Source: Xiphophorus maculatus (Eukaryota > Chordata > Actinopteri > Cyprinodontiformes > Poeciliidae). Taken from it: a DNA stretch of 64,000 nt. Of this stretch, positions 1-15,100 are shown one piece after another. The stretch spans positions 32,281,084 through 32,345,083 of the forward strand of contig NC_036462.1 of assembly GCF_002775205.1 (NCBI RefSeq). The letters are read 5' to 3'. Numbering within the stretch: position 1 is the first letter of the stretch; the number at the start of each line of letters is the position of its first letter. Below the pieces are notes generated by a model. The model was not told where the DNA came from. It searched no databases and saw only the letters and a list, made by a program, of their open reading frames with translations. The translations under genes and the position numbers were made by a program.

Positions 1-614
1 GGGGGATACCCTGCAAGCACAATGCATGCTAATATTTATTTATCACATACCAGAAAAAACAGCTACCTTCTGTTTATTCATATTCATGGTTGTATTTTCT
101 GTCTTTCTTTTAGGTTCAATGTCAAGAAGAGGTATGTGTAGCATCTCTTAAACATTGAGCTATACAGCAAGATCTAAGAAAATATGTGTTTGTCCTGAAT
201 ATTATTTTTTTATATGCTCTGCTTTTTTTCATTTCATGATAAGAGAGAACACATATCTCGGAGGAAGCGAAGGTCTTCCTCCAGAAAGACTATAAAGAAG
301 GGATGACCAGGGTGGGATCTCCACTGGTTGGAGCGGCATCCCAGGCCACTGGCTTGCCACCGTTTGTCATTGATGTATGTTTACCAAAGTTCTTTCTAGC
401 CATTCAATTTCAGAATTCAGAAGGCAAGATGCAATTTCATATAAAAATAAATTCAAACTTCCTGTTTTGTAACAAGACTTTTGTGTTTTTTAGAACTGGA
501 TTGGAAACTATAGAAGAAAAAAGCCATCTTCTTCTCAACCTAAAAACAAGAAGTTATACACCAAGGACCTGTCTGGTTACAACCTGTTCTGCAGGGATCA
601 GTTAAAGAACAAGG

Positions 615-1975
615 GTGAGAGAGGATTTACTGTAGCTGTTATGTTGACAAGCATTGTTGTGTGTATAGCTAGCCTGATCATTGCAATTCTCACTTACAGC
701 ACAGCCTTTGCTTTCTCCCCTTGACTCGGATTATCTCCTGCAGACGTTTCATTGTGCCAATCAGTAAACAGAAGGAGAAGTTGTTAAGACTGCCAATTTT
801 CTGTGCTGTTTTAGAATTGCAGTCCACCTGTAGTTGTAGCAAAGTAAAGGAAGCCATTCAGTCTTTGTTGGCCTTCCAAATATGGAATTAACATGGACAG
901 CTGCCTCGATGAGCTCAGGGCTTCTGTCTTTGTAGTGACAGATTTTATGTATTTATTTATTTTATTTTATTTATTTATTTATTTGCAGCAAATGCAATTT
1001 CAAGTAGAATTTTTGGCATTGAACTGGCACATGACATACGTCACAGACAAACATTAGCGATTGGGTAAAATTTAACACCTCTAGAGAGGTGTTAAATGAG
1101 TGTTAATTGAGCAATAGTGTCTCAATAGCCATAGCCCAGACCCTCTGGATGCTTCAATGTGTAGTACAATGGGTCATTTTTTTACCAGGCTATTCATAAA
1201 CTTAATTTTTGGAAAAAGTATCTTGCCTTAGTTATTTTGTAGTTGTGTAATACTTGCATTGTTCTGTTCGATTTACTTTCTAGAACAGTGGTTTCCAAAG
1301 TTGATTCTCAAGGGCTGGAACCTTCATGCCCTTGAGCCATGATTGAATCTAGGTTAACACACCTGGATTCAATCATGGCTCATTAGAAGGCCAAAGAAGA
1401 AAATTGACATGTTGAGGAGGTTACAACCACCAGACAGAGAAGTAAAACAAGCGGTCCTTATTGGAAGGACTTCATTCAGTATCCCTTTCCATGTAATAGG
1501 GGGTTTTTTTTGGACTTGTTTTAATCATACAATTCCATTTGAAATTGTATATATGGTTTTTATATCAGATTTATATTAGAAATAAATCTCTTTCCCTGTG
1601 ACAATTCTATTCAGTGTATCCCAACAGATACCTGCTTAGTTATTTGCAATTATGGTCTATGATGGAATAGTTACCGTAAAAACTTTGCAGAAGCAGATGC
1701 CAACTTACAACGAGAAATGAAACAAATATACCCTGAAGTATGGGAAATTGTCCTTTCGTTCATTAAAATTAATAAAGTACAATGTTGTGTTGATTAATAT
1801 TAGCCTTAAGAAAACCTTTAATCGTTCACACTTCACAATGTGTACTTGAGAAATACTGTTTAAGCCATGTCCTGGATACTTGTACTTCAAGTTTTTATAT
1901 TGCATTTTATTGTACTCATATTGAAAATATGTTGGAAAAACAATTTCAATAATTATATTTTATTCTTTGTATCAG
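615..1975 (+). other. Intron of the left decayed gene, with repeats
   Basis: No coding signal is seen. It holds a copy of a dispersed repeat at about 795-1065 that recurs at 25822-26115, a TTTA-rich run at about 950-985, a 13-bp-arm palindrome at 1070-1097, and a partial hAT-like MITE from 1286. The missing half of the HMG-like domain could have been here but was not found. Confidence 0.5.
1286..1480. mobile_element. Partial hAT-type MITE
   Basis: The start CAGTGGTTTCCAAAGTTG matches the terminal repeat of the fuller copies at 9727-9920 and 31796-33279. The right end has decayed. Inside is a near-perfect inverted repeat around GCCATGATTGAATC at about 1338-1380. Confidence 0.5.
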
Positions 1976-3024
1976 ACCCCGGGAGGAAAATTAGGACACC
2001 AACTGTGGAAGACATTTTGAATGCAATGTGTGCAAATGGTAAGTTTGTTGCATGTCTATCCTGAAAGTCCTCCATTACAATGTTGTTATGTATGTTATGT
2101 GGGTATATTACAAAGCGCACTACACCCTCGGTAACACAATATGTCTGGTCTTCCTTAGGAAAATATGTATTCCGGATGATTTATAGGTTTTCAGATACAA
2201 AAAGTGTGGGGAGTCCAGCTTTGTCTTTAGGTTACTCTGACGTACAACCAGATATGTTTAAGAAATTATAAATATTCCATACTTAGATAAATCACATACG
2301 CTTTGGGGTACGTGTATTGGGTGATCTCATTAGTGAGGATGTAACACCTTTCAAAATGTTCTATATGGCTATTATGTATAGTTGGATTATAGCTGTACTG
2401 TCATGTCAATGTCTGCAAGATTCATCTCGGCATTGATATTGTGGTTGTACAAAAATGTATGTGTAATATAGTGCATGTGATGCGTTTCTCATGCTAAGAC
2501 TGTTGAACAAATGTAGTTGTGACAATTAGCAAGTTGGCAAGTCTCACAACAGCTGATGTTCCCTCTGAACAATAGTCACATTCACAAATGCGGAATACAG
2601 AAATATTTTATTGTGAGCTGTTAAAAGTAATAGTTGCAGCTGGTGTCACAGCTGACATAAATCCGAATACTTTGCAGCACTATGTTTGGTTATGTTTTAT
2701 TGCTTATTCAAACCACTTGAGGTGGAGACCATCAGTCACACAACAAAACACAGAAAACTCTCATTCCCTATGTACATCAACCACATTTCCAGCTTTAATT
2801 ACACATGCAAACATTAAAGAAATTATTAAATTAGATGTACCACAAAATACAGTAGTACAGAACTAAAGCATAGATGCTTGTCTTGCATCACTTGTTTAAC
2901 TTTAAGGAAGTAGAAGACATCTCAAATTACGGAACTAATGAATGAGCAGGCAATAATTTGTTTTCAACATAAAAAAAAAATTGCAGAAATAATTACATAC
3001 AAATCACACTAACCAATAGCTTAA

Positions 3025-3198
3025 AGTGGGGGTTCCCAAAATTGTTCCTCAATGGCCAGCACCTTGCATTTCTTAGTTCTGTTCCTGGTTTAATGCAAGG
3101 CCTATGAATAGGTTGACATGATGAAAAGTTTGTAACTTCCACCGGTGAGAGAACTAAAACATGCAGGATGCCCATCCTCAGGGCCCTAATTTTGATGA
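3025..3198. mobile_element. Degenerate hAT-type MITE
   Basis: The sequence GTGGGGGTTCCCAAAATTG at the left and the ACTAAAACATGCAGGATGCC stretch near the right match the same palindromic MITE family seen at 9727 and 31796. The ends are too diverged to show a target duplication. Confidence 0.5.
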
Positions 3199-3542
3199 CA
3201 ATGAATAAAAATAAAAAGTATTAATAATAAAACTGTTTCAATATGTTTAAATATGCTGTTTACACAGAACTGATAGTAACGCTTGAGTTCAACATATTCC
3301 CGTATAAAGTATAATATGTTAAACGTTACTTGAAGGTATGACCTACCTTGAGATCACATTGCAACTAAACTGTTAATTCTTCTTTAGATGAGCGGAGCGT
3401 AACAGAGCCTATGGGTTTGACGGAAGTGCTGTCAAGAGAACCGACTACAGATGGTATGCATTTAAATAAATTAAGGCATTATGCTTCTTTTATGTTTTTT
3501 AAACTACATTTGTCAATAAATGACTTATTTTTCTTTATTTAG

Positions 3543-3755
3543 ATACTACGGATGTTTGCAACATCTGTTGAACAGACGTTCATCACTGAACATCTGTTCA
3601 GTGATGAGAAAAAAAATGCCAAGAAGAAGTGGCGTGAGTGGCGACGTTGCAACACATGTGAGCAGTGGTCACACCTGGCATGTGGATTCAAGAAAAACTG
3701 AAAAATTGTCTGCACTGGGACTGCAAAAAAGACACTTCTAATTTGGTCACAGTTG
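3543..3755 (+). pseudogene. Broken PHD-finger-like exon
   Basis: After the acceptor ending at 3542 the expected frame reads DTTDVCNIC and then hits TGA. One base on, the reading frame gives WREWRRCNTCEQWSHLACGF and then stops again. In a third frame the sequence continues KNCLHWDC. Together these are the cysteine and histidine pairs of a PHD-type zinc finger (C-x2-C, C-x2-C-x4-H-x2-C, C-x4-C) spread over shifted frames. This suggests a zinc-binding domain that has been broken by small indels. A different explanation would be unseen short introns. Confidence 0.45.
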
Positions 3756-3840
3756 TGACATCTGACATCTGTCAATGTTAGCATTTCCTGTAGTTTTTTC
3801 TTAAACAATTGATAAATGTACAATGCATCAATAAAAGCTT

Positions 3841-4584
3841 TTGTATTGAAAAGATATTCTGTCAAATGTGAGTTCTTTAAATAGTAACAAACATTTGGGT
3901 ATCAAACGAACACATCAGTGAGCATGTTAGCTGAACTCATTACTATTACACTTGAAAAATGTCCACATGGTAGCACAGATAATACCCTTTAGCAAAAGAA
4001 TGAGTAAGATCTTTCCTTTTACATAAACAAATTGACCAGGTTAGAAGACGACACGTTCAGGTAAAGGCACTTTCTCCCTTCGCGAAATCGTTAGGACAGG
4101 CATGTTGATAGGACACAGCTGGAGAAGATCCCAGTGTGGGATGCAGTAGTTCCACAACGTCACGTTACTATTGGTTATCAATGGGTGACACGCCACGTGA
4201 CCAGTTACACACTTTTTGCCGCTTAATGAAAACTATTAATACGATTTGACATTAGGATTTCATTCTGTCTGATAATTTCAATTTATGACTGGAAAATGTG
4301 ATTTACTTACTTTAACAGAATTTACTACCCACTCAGACTGGTGAGTTCAATCATGACATCGCCCCGTGTGTCAATGCACCCGCGATGGGGCGCATTCCAT
4401 TTCAAATATTGAACGTGTGCCGCAACAATAAGACCCTGTGAGTTGTAAGTGCGAGGCTGTTATAAAGTAATGTATATGGTCATTGAGAGTATAATTGTAG
4501 TGTGTAGTGTTTTAAACTATGATCAGGGCTTCACGTTTTTCTCATATTTAGTTTAGCTGCACTATTACAGATAGTATGTGCTAA
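3841..4584. other. Intergenic stretch with a promoter-like patch
   Basis: No open frame is supported. The part at about 4075-4240 has raised CpG, an ATTGG box (4168-4172) and a CACGTGACC E-box (about 4195), and 4355-4450 is also CpG-richer than its surroundings. These could be remnants of a promoter, but no transcript start can be assigned. Confidence 0.3.
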
Positions 4585-5516
4585 CAAGGAGAAGCTGTAT
4601 GGGAGAGTGATGCAAAAGAAGCCTTTTCAGCAATTACGCCTCAAACAGAGCCGCTTGAGGTCTGCAAAAGCACATTTGGACGAGCCAGCTTCATTTTGGA
4701 ATAAGGTCCTGTGGACTGAAGAAACAAAGATTGAGTTGTTTGGTCATAAAAAATGCATTATGCATGGCGGGGGGGGGAAACAGCATTCCAAGAAAAACAC
4801 TTGCTACCCACTGTAAAATTTGGTGGAGGTTCCATCATGCTTTGGGGCTGTGTGGCCAATGCTGGTACTGGGAATCTTGTTAAAGTTGAGGGTCACATGG
4901 ATTCCACTCAATATTAACAGATTCTTGAGAATAATGTTCAAGAAGCTGATACGAAGTTGAAGTTATGCCGGGGATGGATATTTCAGCAAGACAATGATCC
5001 AAAACACCGCTCCAAATCTACTCAGGCATTCATGCAGAGGAACAATTGCAATGTTCTGGATGGCCATCCCAGTCCAGACCTGAATATCACTGAACATCTG
5101 GGATGATTTGAAGCGGACTGTCCATGCTCGGCAACCATCACACTTAACTCAACTGGAATTGTTTTGTAAAGAGGAATGGTCAAAAATACCTTCATACAGG
5201 ATCAAAGAACTCATTAAAAGCTACAGGAAGCAACTACAGGCTGTTATTTTTGCAAAAGGCAGATCTAATAAATATTAATGTCACTTTTCTGTTGAGGTGC
5301 CCATATTTTTGCACCTGTCAAATTTTCTGTTAATGCGTACTGCACATTTTCTGTTAGTCCAATAAACCTAATTTATTTCTGTGTCTAATGGAAACAGAAA
5401 TATTACTGTGTCCATTAGATATATCAAACTGAAGTAGCTTTTGTAAACACCCAAATATTTATACATAAAAATGATTGAGATTAATAGAGGGGCCCAAACT
5501 TTTTCATATGACTGTA
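4585..5516 (+). mobile_element. 5'-truncated Tc1/mariner element
   Basis: The translation shows Tc1 transposase pieces in order: KKPFQQLRLKQSRLRSAKAH, then SFWNKVLWTEETKIELFGHK, GGGSIMLWGCVA, and IFQQDNDPKHRSK, with shifts and stops between them. The N-terminal DNA-binding part and left terminal repeat are missing. The right terminal repeat ends CCCAAACTTTTTCATATGAC at about 5494-5513, followed by TGTA. The copy is dead and lies between the two convergent genes. Confidence 0.9.
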
Positions 5517-6681
5517 TGTTGCCGCTTTCTCAGGTAGGTTACAAACAGTTATGTCATAATGCCCCAGCCGGCATACCTAGGTGGGCCCCATAAGGGAAAA
5601 AAGAGGGCAGACAGTATAGGTCCCAAAATGGTTTGTTACCATTTTCCATAGTGGCCCATATATTTTTTTTATGTAAGCAGAGACAAATCACATAAGACTA
5701 CATGTCAGAATTTTCTGACATACAGTTGGTGTTATTCAGACTCTCTGTCTTTATATTCCTGCCTGATCCGTCCCGCTGTGTGCTTACATTTTAATGTAAT
5801 ATCTGGTGTGAAGGACGTCAATATTCGCGTTGCCCTCCTGAAAAACGCAAACATCAACACTAATGTTAACTGCTCTATAACCTTTTAAACAACCAGGAAT
5901 GTACATGTCCTTACAGTTGCAAAACTAAATGCAAATCTAACAGTAAGATAATTCTCACTAGTCTGTGCAGCCATCTGAGTGGTGGAGCAGTGGAAGGAGC
6001 GCGTAGACAGCAAACACTCAACCTGGATGCTGGTGTGAGGGGTCTCCTAAAAAAGTAGTCAATCATCCAACTGCAGATTATATATTATGGTGCTGCTGGC
6101 ATTCTTACTAAAACCAGGAAGGTAAATCAAATAAACCAGTTTGTAAGTCCCTACACAGGCTACAAATAGTCCATATTGTAAGTTTTGAAATCTGTCTGAA
6201 ATATCACAGAAACACTGACGTAGCTCTTAATGAATTTTTAATACAGAGTAGTGCCCTTCAAAATAATGTAATTCTTGGATAACAGTCAAATATTTCTCAA
6301 ATATGAACATCACAAAATTTTAGTCCACTACGTTTTAGTTATTTCGTTGTTGTGCCCAAATTTAAAGATATTATGTAAAGCACATTATGCAGCATCTCAA
6401 AATTAAGAGTTAAATTCAAACTGTAAATGAAGTTTAGTCATTAACAATGTCATACTGAACAAGAACATTAATAAATGTGAAAAAGAGTACAAAGCTGTAA
6501 TGAGTAAAACTAAAATGCCCTTGATTATATATAGCTTGACTTAAAAAACAGATATGTCTCAACAATATCAAAAGCAATAAACTGAGATGTTAGAACAAAA
6601 AGCTTATATGAAAATCATCAAACAATAAACTTTTTATACTGGAATATGTGCTCTTCACATAGGACAGTAAGTGGCCATAAA
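5517..6681. other. Intergenic, nothing clear
   Basis: AT-rich sequence with no supported gene. A short stretch at about 5565-5660 (GGTGGGCCCCATAAGGG, then GGTTTGTTACCATTTTCC) looks like a repeat fragment. The 3' UTR of the minus-strand gene that ends at 6682 probably occupies the right part, but I found no clear poly(A) signal. Confidence 0.4.
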
Positions 6682-7131
6682 TCATGAAGATGATTCACAA
6701 TCTATGCTGTTCTCTCCTTCGTCAACATTGTCGTCATCATCCTCTTCATCCTCTCCATCGTCAATGCTTTCATCATAGTCTATGTAATGTAGATCTGGAG
6801 ACATAAGTGCTTGAGAATGAGAGTTAAACTCTGGTAGGTGATGATTTGGAGGAGGGGCACCAACTTCAATAAACCTCTTGAACATGTTCATTGCACTGTA
6901 CATTTTCTTTTCTAACATGATAATGTTTTGATGAAGTACAGCTTTTGAACCAGGATCTGCAGTATCATTTATAGCTGAACTTAAATGTCCATGTTGTTGA
7001 TGAAGGTGAAGAATGACAGTGTTCATCTCTCTCTTAAGTAGAAGCTTTTCTTCAGCTGCTCTAGTCTTCAAATGCAGGGCTTCTATTGCTCGACTTTTTA
7101 GGTTCTTTGGAACAACACCATGATCTTCAAT
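6682..7131 (-). CDS. KDZ-derived gene, last exon with acidic tail
   Basis: The acceptor is TTATTTTAAAG, and the exon is open for 149 residues to the stop at 6682-6684. The first two thirds are helical (RAAEEKLLLKREMNTVILHL and more). The end is very acidic (DDGEDEEDDDDNVDEGENS), a common feature of nuclear proteins. It keeps an intact frame of 450 bases, which argues against long neutral decay. Confidence 0.7.
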   Translation of the reverse strand: MEDHGVVPKNLKSRAIEALHLKTRAAEEKLLLKREMNTVILHLHQQHGHLSSAINDTADPGSKAVLHQNIIMLEKKMYSAMNMFKRFIEVGAPPPNHHLPEFNSHSQALMSPDLHYIDYDESIDDGEDEEDDDDNVDEGENSIDCESSS

Positions 7132-10100
7132 CTTTAAAATAAGAGAACAATTGCAAGTGGAACCTTGTTAAAGCGTAGTAGCAACATAAAGTGAATAACA
7201 GCATGTAGAAAGTTGAATAAAACCTTTAGATCAATTCTACTCACTTGTTCATCAAACAATGTGTACAGCTGGGAGGAGGCATCACACAATTCTCGAAATT
7301 CTAAATGTGATGGAAAGATGCCAGTTTGTGGAGGCCACTGCAGATTATTGTACTCTGTAACAATCTTCTTCAGTTTTCTGTTACAGGCATTCACTTGCTT
7401 GGACAGCCTTATAGCAACTCCCTGTCCATCTGTAAAGAAAGAAGAAATATAAATACTAGTAAAAATAATACAATCAACACAATATGAAAACATGATACAA
7501 TAGTCATTTATTGAAGTATGTTAAACATAATAAAAGGTCAACATCTGAAATAGTGTTTATCTCAATTTGGATTTTGTGAACACAAGTAGTGGCAGCCAAT
7601 TCTACACAAGATATTCAACATGACACTAAAGTTCGCATAAGGAAATATCAGTTTGTAGGTCAAAATCTATTACTGCCAATAATTGAATGATATTTTAATT
7701 GTACTCTTAAAAAAGTTATCCTCAGAATATAAAGACTGATAGTTCTTACAGTGACTTAATATCTGCAGTAATGCATAAGATCATTGAATGTCCATTAGAA
7801 AATGGATGTATTACAATACTCACTTATCTGTGCCTATTTACAACGGGCATTAGGTGAAAGACAGGATACACCCAAGAAACATATTCATACACCAAAGATA
7901 AATAACCATACACATCAAAAGCACATACCCATGACAAAGGACAAGTTGGAATAAACCAGTCACTTCGTACACTGCATAAAGAAGCTTAAGTACCCAGAGT
8001 GAACATATGCATGGTGCAGGGATAACATAAAGATTAAATTTAGGTTTACCACATGCTGGGATTCAACCACAAGACCTTTGAGCTTCAATTTTGCTAATGA
8101 CCATACAGTCAAGAAAAGAAGTAGCGTTACCATTATATCTTCTTTTCAGGTTGAGAAGAGTGGTCCTCTCCCTTGCTTCATTTTGTGCTCGTCGTATCAG
8201 CTGACCTCTAAGTTCCTGGTCAACATCTCTCAGTGTTCTCTGGAAAATGTCATCCGAAGGGAGCCACCTTCGTTTTACACCATGGTGTCTCTCAATTATT
8301 CGAAGATCCCTGTCCAGCCTAACCACAACAAAAACAAACAAAAAAAACAAAACAACGCACAGTTTCTTTACTTCAGGCGAGAACTGTTGTTCAAATATAG
8401 AAGAGTACAAATATCTGTCTCTTACTGTTATTCATCTTCAATGAGTGACTCCTGTTTATGTGATCCGGATCTAAAAATGAAAACAAAGACTTTATATTGG
8501 CATAGCTTGTATAATTAGCTGAGCTTAATACTTTGTCATTAATGTGGCAACATTGTAAGTCTTGTGTAAGTATTTCACAATGTTTATACATTATCTTATG
8601 CATGTCTGAGGTTAGTGCCTAGTAGTGAGGCTGCTTCCCATAGGTGAGGTTAGGAACATGGAACAACCACCAAATCGAGACATTTGACTACATTTTTTTG
8701 TATTTACTACATGTCTTGAAAACTGCAGACCTTTGCAGCACCCTCATCATTACAGACACACCACCAATCTGCCTACTGATTTGGTATTCAAAAAAGGATC
8801 ATACCTGAGCTGGTTGATTTCGGTCAGCTTCATCACATAGTTCCTCTTCCATCTTGGAACAATCTCTGTAGATAAGTCAACAATGTATGTTATTGAACAA
8901 TCCAATATCTCTGTGAATAATTGGAAATAATACAAATTACATCAAAATTAGTGACCTTCGTCGGAAGTGATAATGGCGAAACTGGGAAATAGACTCTCCT
9001 ACTAGGGGTCTGTACAGCATATTAACCTGTAGTAAAAAGAGTCACAGTACTTATGTTTAATCTATTAATTCCAAAGGTACATAAGTAAAAAAAATAAATA
9101 AATAAATACTGTAAAAAAAAAAATTCTAAATGAGAAAGCAGTAAATAACACATCTAGTCTACTGGAAATGCCATCAGTGACATTAATTTAAAGAAATATT
9201 TAATATATTAAACAGAATAAAAAAGTTGCAATATTGTTGACATATTTACTAGGACATATCTTTTTCTCTCTACCTCCATAACAGTAAGATTGTTTTTCCA
9301 CCGTAAGGTGTTGATGAATCCCTCTACAGAGACCTGGCACTCCAAAGAAAGATGGACAAATAGCTCAAGAAGAGCCATTGAAAAAGCAGCCTGTGGCTTC
9401 TCCGGTGAAGCAGGCCAAAGGCCATACTTCAGAAGAGTGCAGACCTCAGGTTCGCATTTACAAAAAGAAACTGTGCAATTAATGAGATGACCTAAAAAGA
9501 CAAAGGAAGAAAAAGGATTCATTCCATTTTTTATCTCACAGAGTCAATAAATACACTGTTTTATAGAACTTGGAATTAAATCAGTCCACAATATGTGTTA
9601 TAATTATACTTTGATTTTATAAGTTGTATAACAAATACATGATATCCATATGAGGAGTTGATCTTTTTATTACTGCTCCCTTTAGGGACCACCGAGCCAC
9701 ATCTATGCTTCTAAGATGGAATAGGACAGGGGTGACCAAAATTCGTCCTCGAGCACCTTCATTCTGCATGTTTTAGTTCTCTCTGTGGTGGTGGTAACAA
9801 CCTTTCCAGCAGGTCAATGTTCTTCTACTGAGCCATCACTGGATCCAAGTGCATTAAACCAGGGACAGAACTAAAACCTGCAAAATGCTGGCCTTCGAGG
9901 ACCGACTTTGGGCACCACTGGTGTAGGATGTATTGGGATTACACCCTAGGAGCTGGCCCAATTGGCTGGGTAGAGGGAAGTCTGGGAATCCTTAATTATG
10001 CTGTTACTTGGGTGACCTGACCCCAGATAAGCAGAAGGCAATGGATGGATGATATATCCCTTCTTTAAACATGTACAAACCAACGCAGACTTGCCACTTT

Positions 10101-10328
10101 AACTGTGTTTAACTTAACATGTGTTGTCTTTAACTGAGCTTCCCCTCCAATCTATGTATTTATGTAGTTTTCTATATTTGTGTATCCAAGTATAAATAAA
10201 TAACAACAAAGAAGAATAAAAAGTTATTCCACAATAAAAAGTCACATAAACATATATTCACGTGGGACAAGATTAATAATCATAAAGTGAAAACATAAAT
10301 TTTACTAAATAAGATTTAGAATTTTGTA

Positions 10329-10388
<60 letters not shown>

Positions 10389-11701
10389 TGCTCAAAAAAA
10401 TAAAGGGAACACTTAAACAACACAATATAACTCCAAGTAAATCAAACTTCTGTGAAATCAAACTGTCCACTTAGGAAGCAACACTGATTGACTATCAATT
10501 CCACCTGCTGTTGTGCAAATGGAACTTTGTACAGAACAAAGTATTCAATGAGAATATTTCTTTCATTCAGATCTAGGATGTGTTATTTGAGTGTTCCCTT
10601 TATTTTTTTGAGCAGTATATATATATATATATATACATACACATATACACAAAATTAATTAATTAAAAAATTACATAGTGTAAAAACATACCTGTGTTGA
10701 CAAAAGTCTTTACATCTCTGGAGTAAACAACATGGGTGCTGTGATCCCCACTTAAATGCAACACCAACTGCTGGAAAGCAGCCTCATAGCAGGTTTTCTA
10801 AAGAGACACAAAAAAGGACAGAGAAAAACCGAATTTTATGCAATTAAGAACTCATTCTCATTCTATACATATCAATTACAATATTTATTAGTACATTCAA
10901 CAAAAATGAACTTACATTCCACTTTTCAGGGAGGTGCAAAGAATTTATGGGTACTGTGTAGACACAATCCTTGCAAAAAACACTGCTTCTGCTGCATTCC
11001 AGACAGCGGTATACTCCAGGTTTCTTGCACACAGAGCACATGTCAGAGAAAGGAGCGGAGGACTTATAGGACTCTTCCAAGACCTGATCTTTTAGTGTAT
11101 CCCATAGGCTCAGCTCCTTCCTTTTTGCCCTGGTATACGCGGTCCCTTCTTCCTTTGAGTTTTCAGTACAAATATCATTTGATGAGGGAAAAACAGTGTT
11201 GGTGTCAGATGAGCCTGCATGTGAGGGAATGTAGGAATATTTCGCCCGAGCACCGATGGTTTTCCGAGTTACTTTTATTTTTTTGGTCTTACAACGGACA
11301 CTGCTCTTATATTTAGGCATGGTTCTAAAGTGGGAGAGAACAGAAAGAAGACAGAAATACTGTAACACCGAGAAGCATAAAATAATAATAAAAAAAACAA
11401 AATTTTAGCACATTGTTATTAAAGGTATGAAGGACAGCTACATTTGAATGTGACTGGCTTTTAAGAGGCTACTTTAGCTAGCTTTTTTTTTCTACCAAAT
11501 AGGGTTAAAAACGTGTCTAAATCTGTACAAACACATGCTGTGCCACATACTCGCTAACATTAACTCATAGAACTACCATCAGCAGATTTATAAATGTAGA
11601 CTTTCGGTCTTTTGAGGTTTTTTACTACATTTTTATTTGACAGATTCAGGGGCTACTCACCAGCTCCGACCGTGGAAAGTGTCGCGTCGAATGACGTAAG
11701 C
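6682..11701 (-). CDS. KDZ-transposase-derived protein (CxC2-like cluster, no catalytic core seen)
   Basis: Nine exons were read on the minus strand: non-coding 11701-11661, then coding 11320-10916, 10797-10692, 9491-9274, 9026-8956, 8865-8805, 8318-8131, 7429-7245 and 7131-6682. Phases agree at every join except between 8805 and 8318, where at least one exon is unaccounted for. Exon 1 (135 residues) is basic and ends in C95-x2-C98-x7-C106-x2-C109-x6-C116-x2-C119 followed by a LHLPEKW segment, as in the CxC2 cluster linked to KDZ transposases. The 9491-9274 exon (FCKCEPEVCTLLKYGLWPAS) continues that domain. The 8318-8131 exon (GVKRRWLPSDDIF) and the helical 7131-6682 exon resemble the region after the KDZ core. 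The DDE core itself is not seen. It could be a domesticated host gene or a defective Zisupton-like element. The splice sites look well kept. Confidence 0.7.
7245..7429 (-). CDS. KDZ-derived gene, helical exon
   Basis: The acceptor is TTCTTTACAG and the donor GTGAGT. It runs from phase 1 to phase 0. It encodes GVAIRLSKQVNACNRKLKKI, then YNNLQWPPQTGIFPSHLEF. Probable coiled helices with a short loop; phases agree on both sides. Confidence 0.65.
8131..8318 (-). CDS. KDZ-derived gene, post-core exon
   Basis: The acceptor is TGTGGTTAG and the donor GTAACG. The product has IIERHHGVKRRWLPSDDIF, then a helical, Arg- and Glu-rich part ending LLNLKRRYN. The G-[IV]-x-R-R-W motif followed by long helices is seen after the catalytic core in KDZ transposases (family knowledge). 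Confidence 0.65.
8805..8865 (-). CDS. KDZ-derived gene, fifth coding exon
   Basis: The acceptor is TTATCTACAG and the donor GTATGA. The phase fits the preceding exon (AG|A gives Arg). It encodes DCSKMEEELCDEADRNQPAQ. The next recognised exon needs two bases from an exon I could not find. A sequence near 8478-8430 has an acceptor but a stop in the needed frame. Confidence 0.55.
8956..9026 (-). CDS. KDZ-derived gene, fourth coding exon
   Basis: The acceptor is TTTACTACAG and the donor GTCACT. It runs from phase 0 to phase 2 and encodes VNMLYRPLVGESISQFRHYH, a typical 'LYR...F' end of the CxC2 region that normally leads into the KDZ core. Confidence 0.6.
9274..9491 (-). CDS. KDZ-derived gene, CxC2 continuation exon
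   Basis: The acceptor TGTCTTTTTAG and donor GTAGAG frame 218 bases. The product has FCKCEPEVCTLLKYGLWPAS, then PQAAFSMALLELFVHLSLEC. This order of a Cys pair, LL..G.WPA.P..P..AF, then a leucine-rich helix ending in E-C is the hallmark of the CxC2 domain in KDZ transposase proteins (family knowledge). It is the best single piece of evidence for the assignment. Confidence 0.75.
9727..9920. mobile_element. hAT-type palindromic MITE
   Basis: It begins CAGGGGTGACCAAAATTCG and ends CGACTTTGGGCACCACTG, which are inverted copies. Flanks GAATAGGA and GTGTAGGA (6 of 8 alike) fit an aged 8-bp target duplication. It lies in the intron between KDZ-derived exons 3 and 2. Confidence 0.65.
9932..10055 (+). 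repeat. LINE-tail-like repeat
   Basis: The segment GGCTGGGTAGAGGGAAGTCT followed by GACCTGACCCCAGATAAGCA and GGATGGATGAT is the common fish repeat end with ATGG-type tail. Only the 3' end is present. Confidence 0.5.
10330..10385. repeat. TA microsatellite
   Basis: About 28 TA units directly to the left of a MITE. A shorter TA run continues to its right at about 10617-10636. Confidence 0.95.
10386..10617. mobile_element. Tc1/mariner-type MITE
   Basis: Terminal inverted repeats CACTGCTCAAAAAAATAAAG (left) and CTTTATTTTTTTGAGCAGTA (right end) bound about 230 bases with no coding sequence. It sits in a TA run, as expected for a family that targets TA. The GGGAACACTT inner part of the repeat is shared by both ends. 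This terminal repeat is widespread in fish genomes. Confidence 0.85.
10692..10797 (-). CDS. KDZ-derived gene, second coding exon
   Basis: The acceptor is TCTCTTTAG and the donor GTATGT. It begins in phase 0 and ends in phase 1. It encodes KTCYEAAFQQLVLHLSGD followed by HSTHVVYSRDVKTF. No motif is recognised, but the phase links exons that carry CxC2-like sequence. Confidence 0.65.
10916..11320 (-). CDS. KDZ-derived gene, first coding exon (CxC2-like cysteines)
   Basis: The start ATG at 11320 lies four bases after a good acceptor (CTCTCCCACTTTAG), so an upstream non-coding exon is expected. A donor GTGAGT after 11661 supplies one. The exon ends at donor GTAAGT after residue 135. The N-terminal 70 residues are rich in Lys, Arg and Ser and could bind DNA or serve as a nuclear signal. 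Confidence 0.75.
11661..11701 (-). promoter_or_regulatory. Putative 5' non-coding exon and promoter of the KDZ-derived gene
   Basis: A donor CTG|GTGAGTAG on the minus strand at 11661, with local CpGs (GTCGCGTCG, ACCGTCGG-like) and a TGACGT CRE-like site at about 11692, marks a likely first exon. The right end of the exon is not defined. Confidence 0.4.
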
Positions 11702-12013
11702 TTCTTCTTCTTCTTCTTCTCTAATGTTTTGTCGGGTGCAATCCGTAATTTATTATTATTACTACTAATACAAATATTAAACATTTTCATATGGTACAAA
11801 CACAGATTTTCATATAATCATATGAGCAAATCCATCCGTATTTTTATTTTTAATTTTTTAAATTAAAAATAAGATTAGGGCCAACCCTAACTTCTTCTTA
11901 TCATTATTAATGGATTGCAAGCAACTTCGGATGTACATACAGCCACCTAGTGGAAGGCTATGAGGTTGGACAACTACATAACTCTAGAATATACCTTTTA
12001 ATTTCATTGTATG

Positions 12014-12118
<105 letters not shown>

Positions 12119-15100
12119 GCACGACCGGAAGATAAAAACACGGCATGTATTGAGAGAACACGTCTTGTAAAGATCCAATAAAATTAACCAAGTATGTTAA
12201 ATTTTGGCATTTATTTTGAGTGAATTATTGGAAAAAATCCAAAGAAATAAAAGGCATATTGGGAATATAAGTCTTTAAAAAAGCGAACAAAAATAAACAA
12301 AACAGAAAAAAAAACCCTCCGGTTTTAGATTTTAGTGAGTTGTTTTTAAATACTGTAACGTTTATTACAATACCTAATTAAAATCTTATGACGGATACGT
12401 TTGGCTTTTGTATTTTTAGTAAATTCTTAATATCCTGTTCAAATTCGCAGATAAATTATAAATAAAGGTTTTTAAAAAAAGGTTAAAAAAAGGTTCTATT
12501 AGCGACAAGCGGCTGTTATCACCGATAGAATGGTTGATAACGGTTGATAACAGCCTGCTAGCAGGTAGAGCAGGGACCAACTGAGGCCATTCAATGGGGC
12601 TGATAACCACTGATAATCGCCATTCTATGGGATGATAACATCCGAAGCGGGTGAAGATAAACAGACAGTAGTGACTTCCAGGTCATTTAAAGAAGAAAAC
12701 TTTTTAAACAGAAAATCGCTAAGATCTATAGACTTAAGGTGAACCAGAGTAAGAATGAAATGATAATACCAAAAAATCTCTAACAGATTTCCTCAAAATA
12801 ATGGCAATTATTTAACCTACAGCAAGTGCATTACCCTCAGCACGGTCTGTGTGAATAGGCGTCAACCAGGCTGTACATTATTTTGATATTTGAACATCTA
12901 TAGCTTTATGGAATATGAAGCCTTAGATCTGATCATTGATGGCCATTAATGAATTTCTGCTAAGCCCTCGCTCCATTTGCAGAACTTAAAGCTCAACAGC
13001 ACATGCTGTACTGCACAGCCATGTGTCAGATAAGTTTTTATAATATTCTTCTGTGTGAGGAGTGATGGAGAGTGATGCCCTGCCGTGCACTGTTGCTAAG
13101 GAACCACAGAAATTTTTACACTCCTTGTGTGCTGCATTATGCTGCAGTCTTCTCATCCATATGCTCTGCTTGGCTCGTAGGGATCAGCTTTCACCAGAAT
13201 CTCAGTCAATTCAAGAATAATTTACTAATTCATTTACAACACCTTTTCCCACTACCGGCAGTCTGAAGCCTGCGGTTGGTGCCACCTGAAGGGGTTTAGT
13301 TATTCTAACACGACATTCATGGGTCGGCGCTCTCTGGCAGTGTGAGCAAGGACGCTGAAATATCCCCAGTAAAGGATAGCTGTGCTCTTTGAATGGCAGA
13401 GTTCTGAAAATCAACTGGTCTTTTCAGGACCTGTAAAAGGCCAAATGTTTTCTGTTTGACAACTGTGACTTTGGTTTTTTACTGCTGTAAGAATATTATG
13501 TGAGCAAGTCTTTTGAGCAGCTCTTTGAAATGATCTGACCCAAAAACATGGGAGCCTGGACCTTCGTCTACTGAGAAACTATTGGAAGATGGTGCGGACA
13601 TTTAAAATTTTACCCAATCGCTAAGACTTGACATATGCAATGCACCTGTTTGTCAGTATAAAGATTACCAGAAGTTGCCTGCGCTGTGAACAACCGTCCT
13701 CCACTGCCGAGAGAGAAGTGCTAAGCTGAACAACATGGCTGCTGATGTTAATTAAATATTTACAAGGGTGGTCAACACAGCTTAGTTCACTTCCACCATT
13801 GCTAAAACTACAGGCAGACTTTACAATTTTAAAACGGCAGCGAAAATCAACGTCATCGTTTGCAACTTCTCCTTCTGTTTGCTGATTGGCCTGGTAGAAA
13901 TCCTACTTGAGGAATCTAGCTCAATGGGAGAAATCCCAGACGGAGCTCTGAAGGGAGATGAGAATCGAGCAGAATTGTGTAGAAAGGTAATGACCAATCT
14001 ATGAATGGTCTCACATGAGGAAACTGCTGCTGAGAACACGGCTGCTGAAAAGTCAGATTGCAAATTAGCTTCAGCAGACAATTTGTCTTCAACACTTTGC
14101 GGAATAATTAGGTTTTCCAAAAACTTAATAAGATGAAAAGAATGGGAACCATCTGATGAGCTGGGTCACTTTGGCCCAAATGTTATGTTCAACATATCGG
14201 AGGGAATAAATGACCAACACAGGAGATGCTTACCCGTCACATTAATTTGATGTCTTTAAAGTACGTGAAGTGATTTGATGGCAGTTGCAGCATACCACAG
14301 AGACATGTAAAAACAAATCTGAAAAAAATGTTTATTACACAAAACACAGCAAACGTGTTACTGGTAAAGACTTTACACACAGTTTGTTTTGGTACTGAAC
14401 TTTAATTTTGCACTTCTCATGGCTTGTAAAGTATCATGAGATGACATTTGTGAATTGGTGCTATATAAATAAGCTGAATAGAAATATTAAATTGGTTATA
14501 ATGTCATGTTTATTTGTTTTTTTGTCCAAAGGCATGACATTAGGTCCATGCAGTGTCAAGAAACAGAGTTGAAGCAAATTTCAATCCACAAACCGCTTGT
14601 TCTCTATTTAATGTTTTTCTCATTTCTAAGTTCTGTTTTCCTAGAACAGATTATCCGTTATAGTTTAGCCATGAGGTTAAACTATTAATTTGCTTTTGAA
14701 AGTGTGGCTGCTTTTGGCTCCACTGAACCACCAGAGGGCGCCTTTGCACAGTCCTTTTAAAAACACATTCTAAGTGTTATCTGGTGAAGACGTTTCAAAA
14801 AGGCTGTTGTTTATTTCCATGGATTATTTGGGACCAATGCTGTAAAGAATGGAGGGAAAAAAGTTACTTTCTGAAGCTATGCTTGGTACACACGTTCACA
14901 CCGCCAATATTCTTGAAGAATATTTGATTTGCCCTCGCTTTTTTCCAAGGAGCTAAGAGTTAATTGACAGATTTGTGGATAGCTCTGATGAAGATGCGTG
15001 AAAAGCATTAAAATAAGTTAACTTGGGGTAGAGGAGGCGCTACAGTCCTCAACACGGAGGTGATCCAAAACATACAGTCAAATCAACACAGAAAAGTTCA

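Follow-up and report, generated by a model that had tools for sequence, protein, structure and literature searches.

The multi-exon locus on the minus strand at positions 6682-11701 of the window (the whole stretch of 64,000 nucleotides of the Xiphophorus maculatus genome that we analysed) is very probably an internally deleted, non-autonomous copy of a DNA transposon of the KDZ superfamily. The original prediction had offered two options, a host gene or a non-autonomous copy, and had named many near-identical copies with terminal repeats as the finding that would speak for an ordinary transposon. A search of the 704.3 Mb genome with 201 bp taken around the exon at 8318 gave at least ten matches of 99-100% identity, in copies that carry inverted repeats and target-site duplications, and it is therefore the second option that stands. 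The marks of the KDZ superfamily are present (CxC clusters above cut-off, defined ends and target-site duplications), and the window copy, which itself lacks the KDZ core (PF18758), is a member by descent because its sibling copy on contig C7 carries that core. We regard the question of gene or transposon as settled for this locus, which shows that a KDZ copy with many exons may be mistaken for a host gene.

AG/GT borders were found at all introns of the locus but one, the exception following the exon that starts at 9026. From its 5' side, the gene consists of a presumed non-coding first exon (11661..11701), whose 3' end at 11661 was placed by eye at a donor-like GTGAGT at 11660, and a first coding exon (10916..11324) with its ATG at 11320, followed by two exons supported by splice borders and Pfam profiles that encode the start (10692..10797) and the main part (9274..9491) of the CxC1/CxC2 region. 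Next come a truncated exon (8937..9026), which passes through a deletion scar to a stop at 8939-8937 and has an intact counterpart in the C7 copy, and a 61-base post-core exon (8805..8865), whose counterpart in the C7 copy continues the frame of the core exons. Two post-core exons (8131..8318, with the motif GVKRRW, and 7245..7429) and the last exon with the acidic tail (6682..7131), all three delimited by splice borders, complete the gene, and all exons lie on the minus strand.

The first half of the gene exceeds the Pfam cut-offs for CxC1 (3.2e-14), CxC2 (2.2e-12) and CxC3 (2.3e-6), with matches to residues 149-236, which correspond to exons 10797-10692 and 9491-9274, whereas no Pfam family exceeds its cut-off in the second half. 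The predicted CxC2-like cluster was thus confirmed in kind; the cysteine cluster of the first coding exon (CSVC..CLEC..CKDC) matches a B-box-like model only, and below cut-off. The G-x-K-R-R-W post-core segment (in exon 8318-8131), the acidic tail (in exon 7131-6682) and the 61-base exon at the place where a core was expected (8865-8805) were all borne out, and the window copy contains no catalytic core. Likewise, the splice sites are clean as predicted, except that the truncated exon starting at 9026 lacks a proper border, and the one bad phase reported among eight joins is real and now accounted for: the eighth join is out of phase because the deletion scar at 8949/8948 converts the exon from 9026 into ...RRSLILM followed by a stop. 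A transcript of the window copy would yield at most a CxC protein of 272 aa that ends at the scar.

Alignment to other copies places the ends of the element around the locus at C20:32279466-32293736, that is, 14.27 kb that include window positions 6682-11701. Of these, the leftmost 1,617 bp precede the window (C20:32279466-32281083) and the remainder occupies window positions 1..12653 on the minus strand, with the alignments to other copies stopping at the tips, which read CACCCGCTTCGG ... CCGAAGCGGGTG. The element is bounded by terminal inverted repeats of 1,234 and 1,259 bp (C20:32279466-32280699 on the left and window 11395..12653 on the right) that differ by 2 substitutions and 31 gap positions, and the outermost 50 bp of the right tip (12604..12653), where the solo tips described below break, contain TTATCA motifs 16, 38 and 48 bp from the end. 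Target-site duplications of 7 bp were present at 7/7 core-less sites at which both flanks were seen, with the window copy and its neighbour counted as one site. Six single copies are flanked by ggggaag, gctagat, catatct, caaaaat, gatacac and gaatggg, and aagataa encloses the pair of window copy and left neighbour, such that the aagataa at 12654..12660 has its partner to the left of the neighbouring copy and not of the window copy. This neighbour is a direct copy at C20:32265659-32279465 that abuts the left tip of the window copy, differs from it by 0 substitutions in 13,807 bp and ends at the counterpart of window position 12205, 448 bp short of the right tip. This arrangement would result if a second copy had inserted into the right repeat of the first and one of the two direct 448-bp ends had then been lost; tandem duplication or an error of assembly could also account for it.

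Among the at least ten copies that contain the post-core exon, nine are core-less and only the one on C7 retains the core; at least two further partial copies of the family are located on C4 and C30 (our searches score the best candidates only, so that all copy counts are lower bounds). The flanks within 3 kb are unrelated among the copies, except that copy c1a is a local duplicate of c1b (99.9%), and with the window copy and its neighbour under a single duplication, the nine core-less copies therefore represent seven sites. The C7 copy has 2,710 bp of extra sequence at window 8949/8948, and this difference defines the deletion scar (8948..8949, with 1 bp of ambiguity). Eight exons in the extra stretch join in frame and free of stops, and the joined exons match the KDZ profile from position 3 to 212 of 217 with an E-value of 1.8e-46, which confirms the predicted KDZ assignment; a search of the genome with the KDZ profile also lands on this segment. 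Since the identical scar is present in eight core-less copies and the ninth (c1a) aligns through it, the core deletion most likely arose once and its product multiplied afterwards.

The C7 copy is itself broken. Its first coding exon is interrupted by a 461-bp insertion with an 8-bp duplication, which by its ends we take to be hAT-like, about 7.8 kb of other sequence is found at window 4291/4288, and the left tip, of which the final 3 bp are missing, is split by two insertions, a ~10.8 kb element (C7:27096790-27107617) flanked by the 8-bp duplication GGTAGAGC and a ~16.7 kb TG..CA element (C7:27107655-27124316) that is LTR-type by its ends. The full core segment was recovered from C7 only, among the matches listed in the DNA search, in which the other 16 matches are short and mostly confined to one intron, and a protein search for the core likewise gave C7 only among the matches listed. 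Two further hits to the KDZ profile above cut-off (C8:27824458-27824826 and C5:32161281-32161562) contain stops in frame; absent from the DNA and protein searches for the core, they are therefore not close to the C7 core. An intact helper, meaning a core-bearing and unbroken copy, was not present in the assembly among the DNA and protein matches listed, and deleted copies this young, with no intact source, raise the question of where the helper is.

One deletion, most likely a single event, took out the catalytic core, and the core-less form then came to sit at seven sites, each marked by a separate 7-bp duplication. Presumably it was moved in trans, by the transposase of an intact copy outside this assembly. 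Such a transposase would recognise the TTATCA-rich tips, and excision by a cut-and-paste mechanism would leave parts of these tips behind. Deleted copies of P or Ds elements have mobile ends and no enzyme and are moved in trans by the enzyme of another copy; the element described here would resemble them in mode only, as the transposases are unrelated.

Candidate excision sites came from searches with the ends of the element. The terminal 200 bp gave at least 39 matches and the terminal 15 bp at least 34 exact matches, against 0 for the reversed control pattern; of the 34, 17 belong to the ends of the ten copies, a single match falls on C30, another is a diverged tip on C1, and the remaining 15 are distributed over 14 loci that hold nothing but a short tip. 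With two more loci with changed bases from the 200-bp search, this makes at least 16 solo tips (L037-L047, L050-L054), all of which were fetched, leaving out the diverged matches C1:6877747, C1:10741806, C20:3491093 and C10:378895 and a pair on C8. In 6/16 solo tips the same exact 7 bp lie directly on both sides of tip remnants of 48+5, 47+10, 42+14, 113+6, 18+18 and 22+0 bp (bases fitting both tips counted twice); the remnant of 18+18 bp forms a perfect palindrome of 34 bp flanked by two cttaggt copies. From 5 to 18 bp of the opposite tip are kept in 5/16. Judged by their sequence, the solo tips look like excision remnants. They could have arisen from cuts inside the tip or from gap repair that was interrupted, the latter likewise implying excision. 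P elements behave comparably, in that, after excision, a portion of the inverted repeats stays behind between the two duplications.

That the solo tips are instead ordinary deletion leftovers or filler DNA, and not excision remnants, strikes us as unlikely. In ten of the 16, the inner side offers no duplication that is informative (one tip is embedded in a TA repeat, and at the other nine the duplication is not intact, L047 retaining 6/7 bases), the break points are spread from 18 to 121 bp, and an A-rich sequence, aaaaaga, makes up one of the six duplications, all of which would fit simple deletion. An ordinary deletion, however, would not respect the outer ends, and it would have to produce both the exact 7-bp repeats and the stretches of opposite tip, including the palindrome. 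The break points themselves, with the diverged locus L044 excluded, lie at 18, 18, 19, 22, 22, 41, 42, 45, 47, 48, 50, 91, ~109, 113 and 121 bp, and 10/15 are in or at a TTATCA hexamer versus 31.5% expected (p 0.005, in a test framed after seeing the data); an earlier test with a looser window had placed 9/10 there. For L046 the script put the break at 53 and inspection by eye, past two changed bases, at ~109, both inside a hexamer. The position of breaks at TTATCA motifs is a post hoc hint of cleavage inside the tips. A hairpin in the tip was rejected as the cause of the break points, with the tip folding no better than shuffled sequences (z -1.28), and the concern that a detection limit underlies the group at 41-50 bp was partly answered by the 15-mer search, which gave shorter tips too, grouped at 18-22 bp.

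The core-less copies are young, to judge by their divergence: substitutions among the eight long ones amount to 0 to 0.43%, and these copies form two groups, one comprising the window copy, its neighbour and those on C10 and C19, and the other those on C1, C3 (two copies) and C4. Variable sites among the eight number 8/1695 in exons versus 16/2629 outside, and the window and C7 copies differ at 17/1695 exonic versus 23/2629 other positions (p 0.75), so that neither comparison, each with few differences and low power, gives a sign of selection on the exons. The AG/GT borders are kept and both halves are open in 8/8 aligned core-less copies, as is expected without selection because the divergence is so low. 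In two of the eight, the acidic tail is shortened by a 9-base in-frame deletion, and at least five amino-acid changes result from the exonic differences among copies.

The truncated protein may have a role. The KP product of Drosophila P elements is a transposase repressor, and by analogy the core-less product might repress the transposase and favour spread of the deleted form. The same 272-aa CxC protein could be encoded by 8/8 aligned copies, up to a few residue changes, but the amino-acid changes among copies and the exons being no more conserved than the rest make this a distinctly improbable account. Least credible by far is a domesticated host gene, with the chromatin- or DNA-binding ends retained from a KDZ transposase. 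The clean splice sites and the open halves would speak for it, but against it stand the at least ten near-identical copies with intact tips and 7-bp duplications, the stop that the scar introduces into the reading frame, and an exon variation no lower than elsewhere.

A deleted KDZ transposon, as we read the locus, invites comparison with relatives. Zisupton of the platyfish, described by Bohne et al. in 2012, is reportedly ~11 kb long, with 99-bp subterminal repeats and an Ulp1 domain. The present element is like Zisupton in its superfamily, its many exons, its size of about ten kb and its few near-identical copies in a fish genome. It is unlike Zisupton, for which the accessible portions of two reports give a CxC7 domain (PMC12062965) and 8-bp duplications (PMC12730594), in having CxC1/CxC2, 7-bp duplications and inverted repeats of 1.2 kb. 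The Pfam scan reported no CxC7 match in the scanned pieces of this family, and the missing CxC7 together with 7-bp duplications at 7/7 sites rules out identity with Zisupton. CxC7 occurs at no fewer than five places in the genome with equal scores, all outside the family's own sequence; one of them, a Zisupton-like hit, is in the nested ~10.8 kb element of the C7 copy.

In the fungal Kyakuja families described in the accessible portion of one report (PMC12730594), 7-bp duplications and CA..TG ends occur without inverted repeats; our element shares the former two but has inverted repeats of 1.23-1.26 kb, and any affinity to Kyakuja is tentative. Cryptococcus KDZ1, KDZ2 and KDZ3, according to the part of their description available to us (PMC12810828), are mobile, measure about 9-11 kb and combine a KDZ core and CxC1 with terminal inverted repeats, features seen here as well, but their repeats are 139-241 bp and their duplications 8 bp (KDZ1) or 4-8 bp (KDZ2, KDZ3), compared with 1.2 kb and 7 bp in the present element.

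Tentatively, these traits may belong to a vertebrate KDZ lineage with Kyakuja-like duplication length and end letters, long inverted repeats, a transposase that cuts its own tips at TTATCA, and a P-like excision after which intact 7-bp duplications enclose 18-22 or 41-50 bp of tip. If so, the genome would be a readable record of past excisions by the KDZ superfamily, and if the scarred empty sites are natural KDZ excision products, the cleavage sites could be deduced from them. Among the matches listed in the literature on Zisupton, Kyakuja and KDZ transposases, we recognised no description of KDZ excision products or of the cut.

Several minor features of the element were also recorded. The presumed first exon sits inside the long inverted repeat (window 11395-12653), and the left end may therefore bear the same start region in opposite orientation. 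We considered whether the element's left half holds a second gene and rejected this, as the 17 plus-strand ORF pieces there gave no Pfam match above cut-off. One plus-strand ORF, at 3543-3698 with CNTCEQWSHLACG, has by eye the look of half a PHD finger and no Pfam match. A nested Tc1-like transposase fragment at 4523..5275 on the plus strand was recognised by eye from its ORFs (HTH_Tnp_Tc3_2 below cut-off, E 0.034) and lies within a stretch common to the C7 copy. Finally, the pair on C8 (C8:12827793-12828521) consists of two inverted tip-like sequences (76% and 72%) spanning ~730 bp end to end, and is perhaps a short relative of the element.
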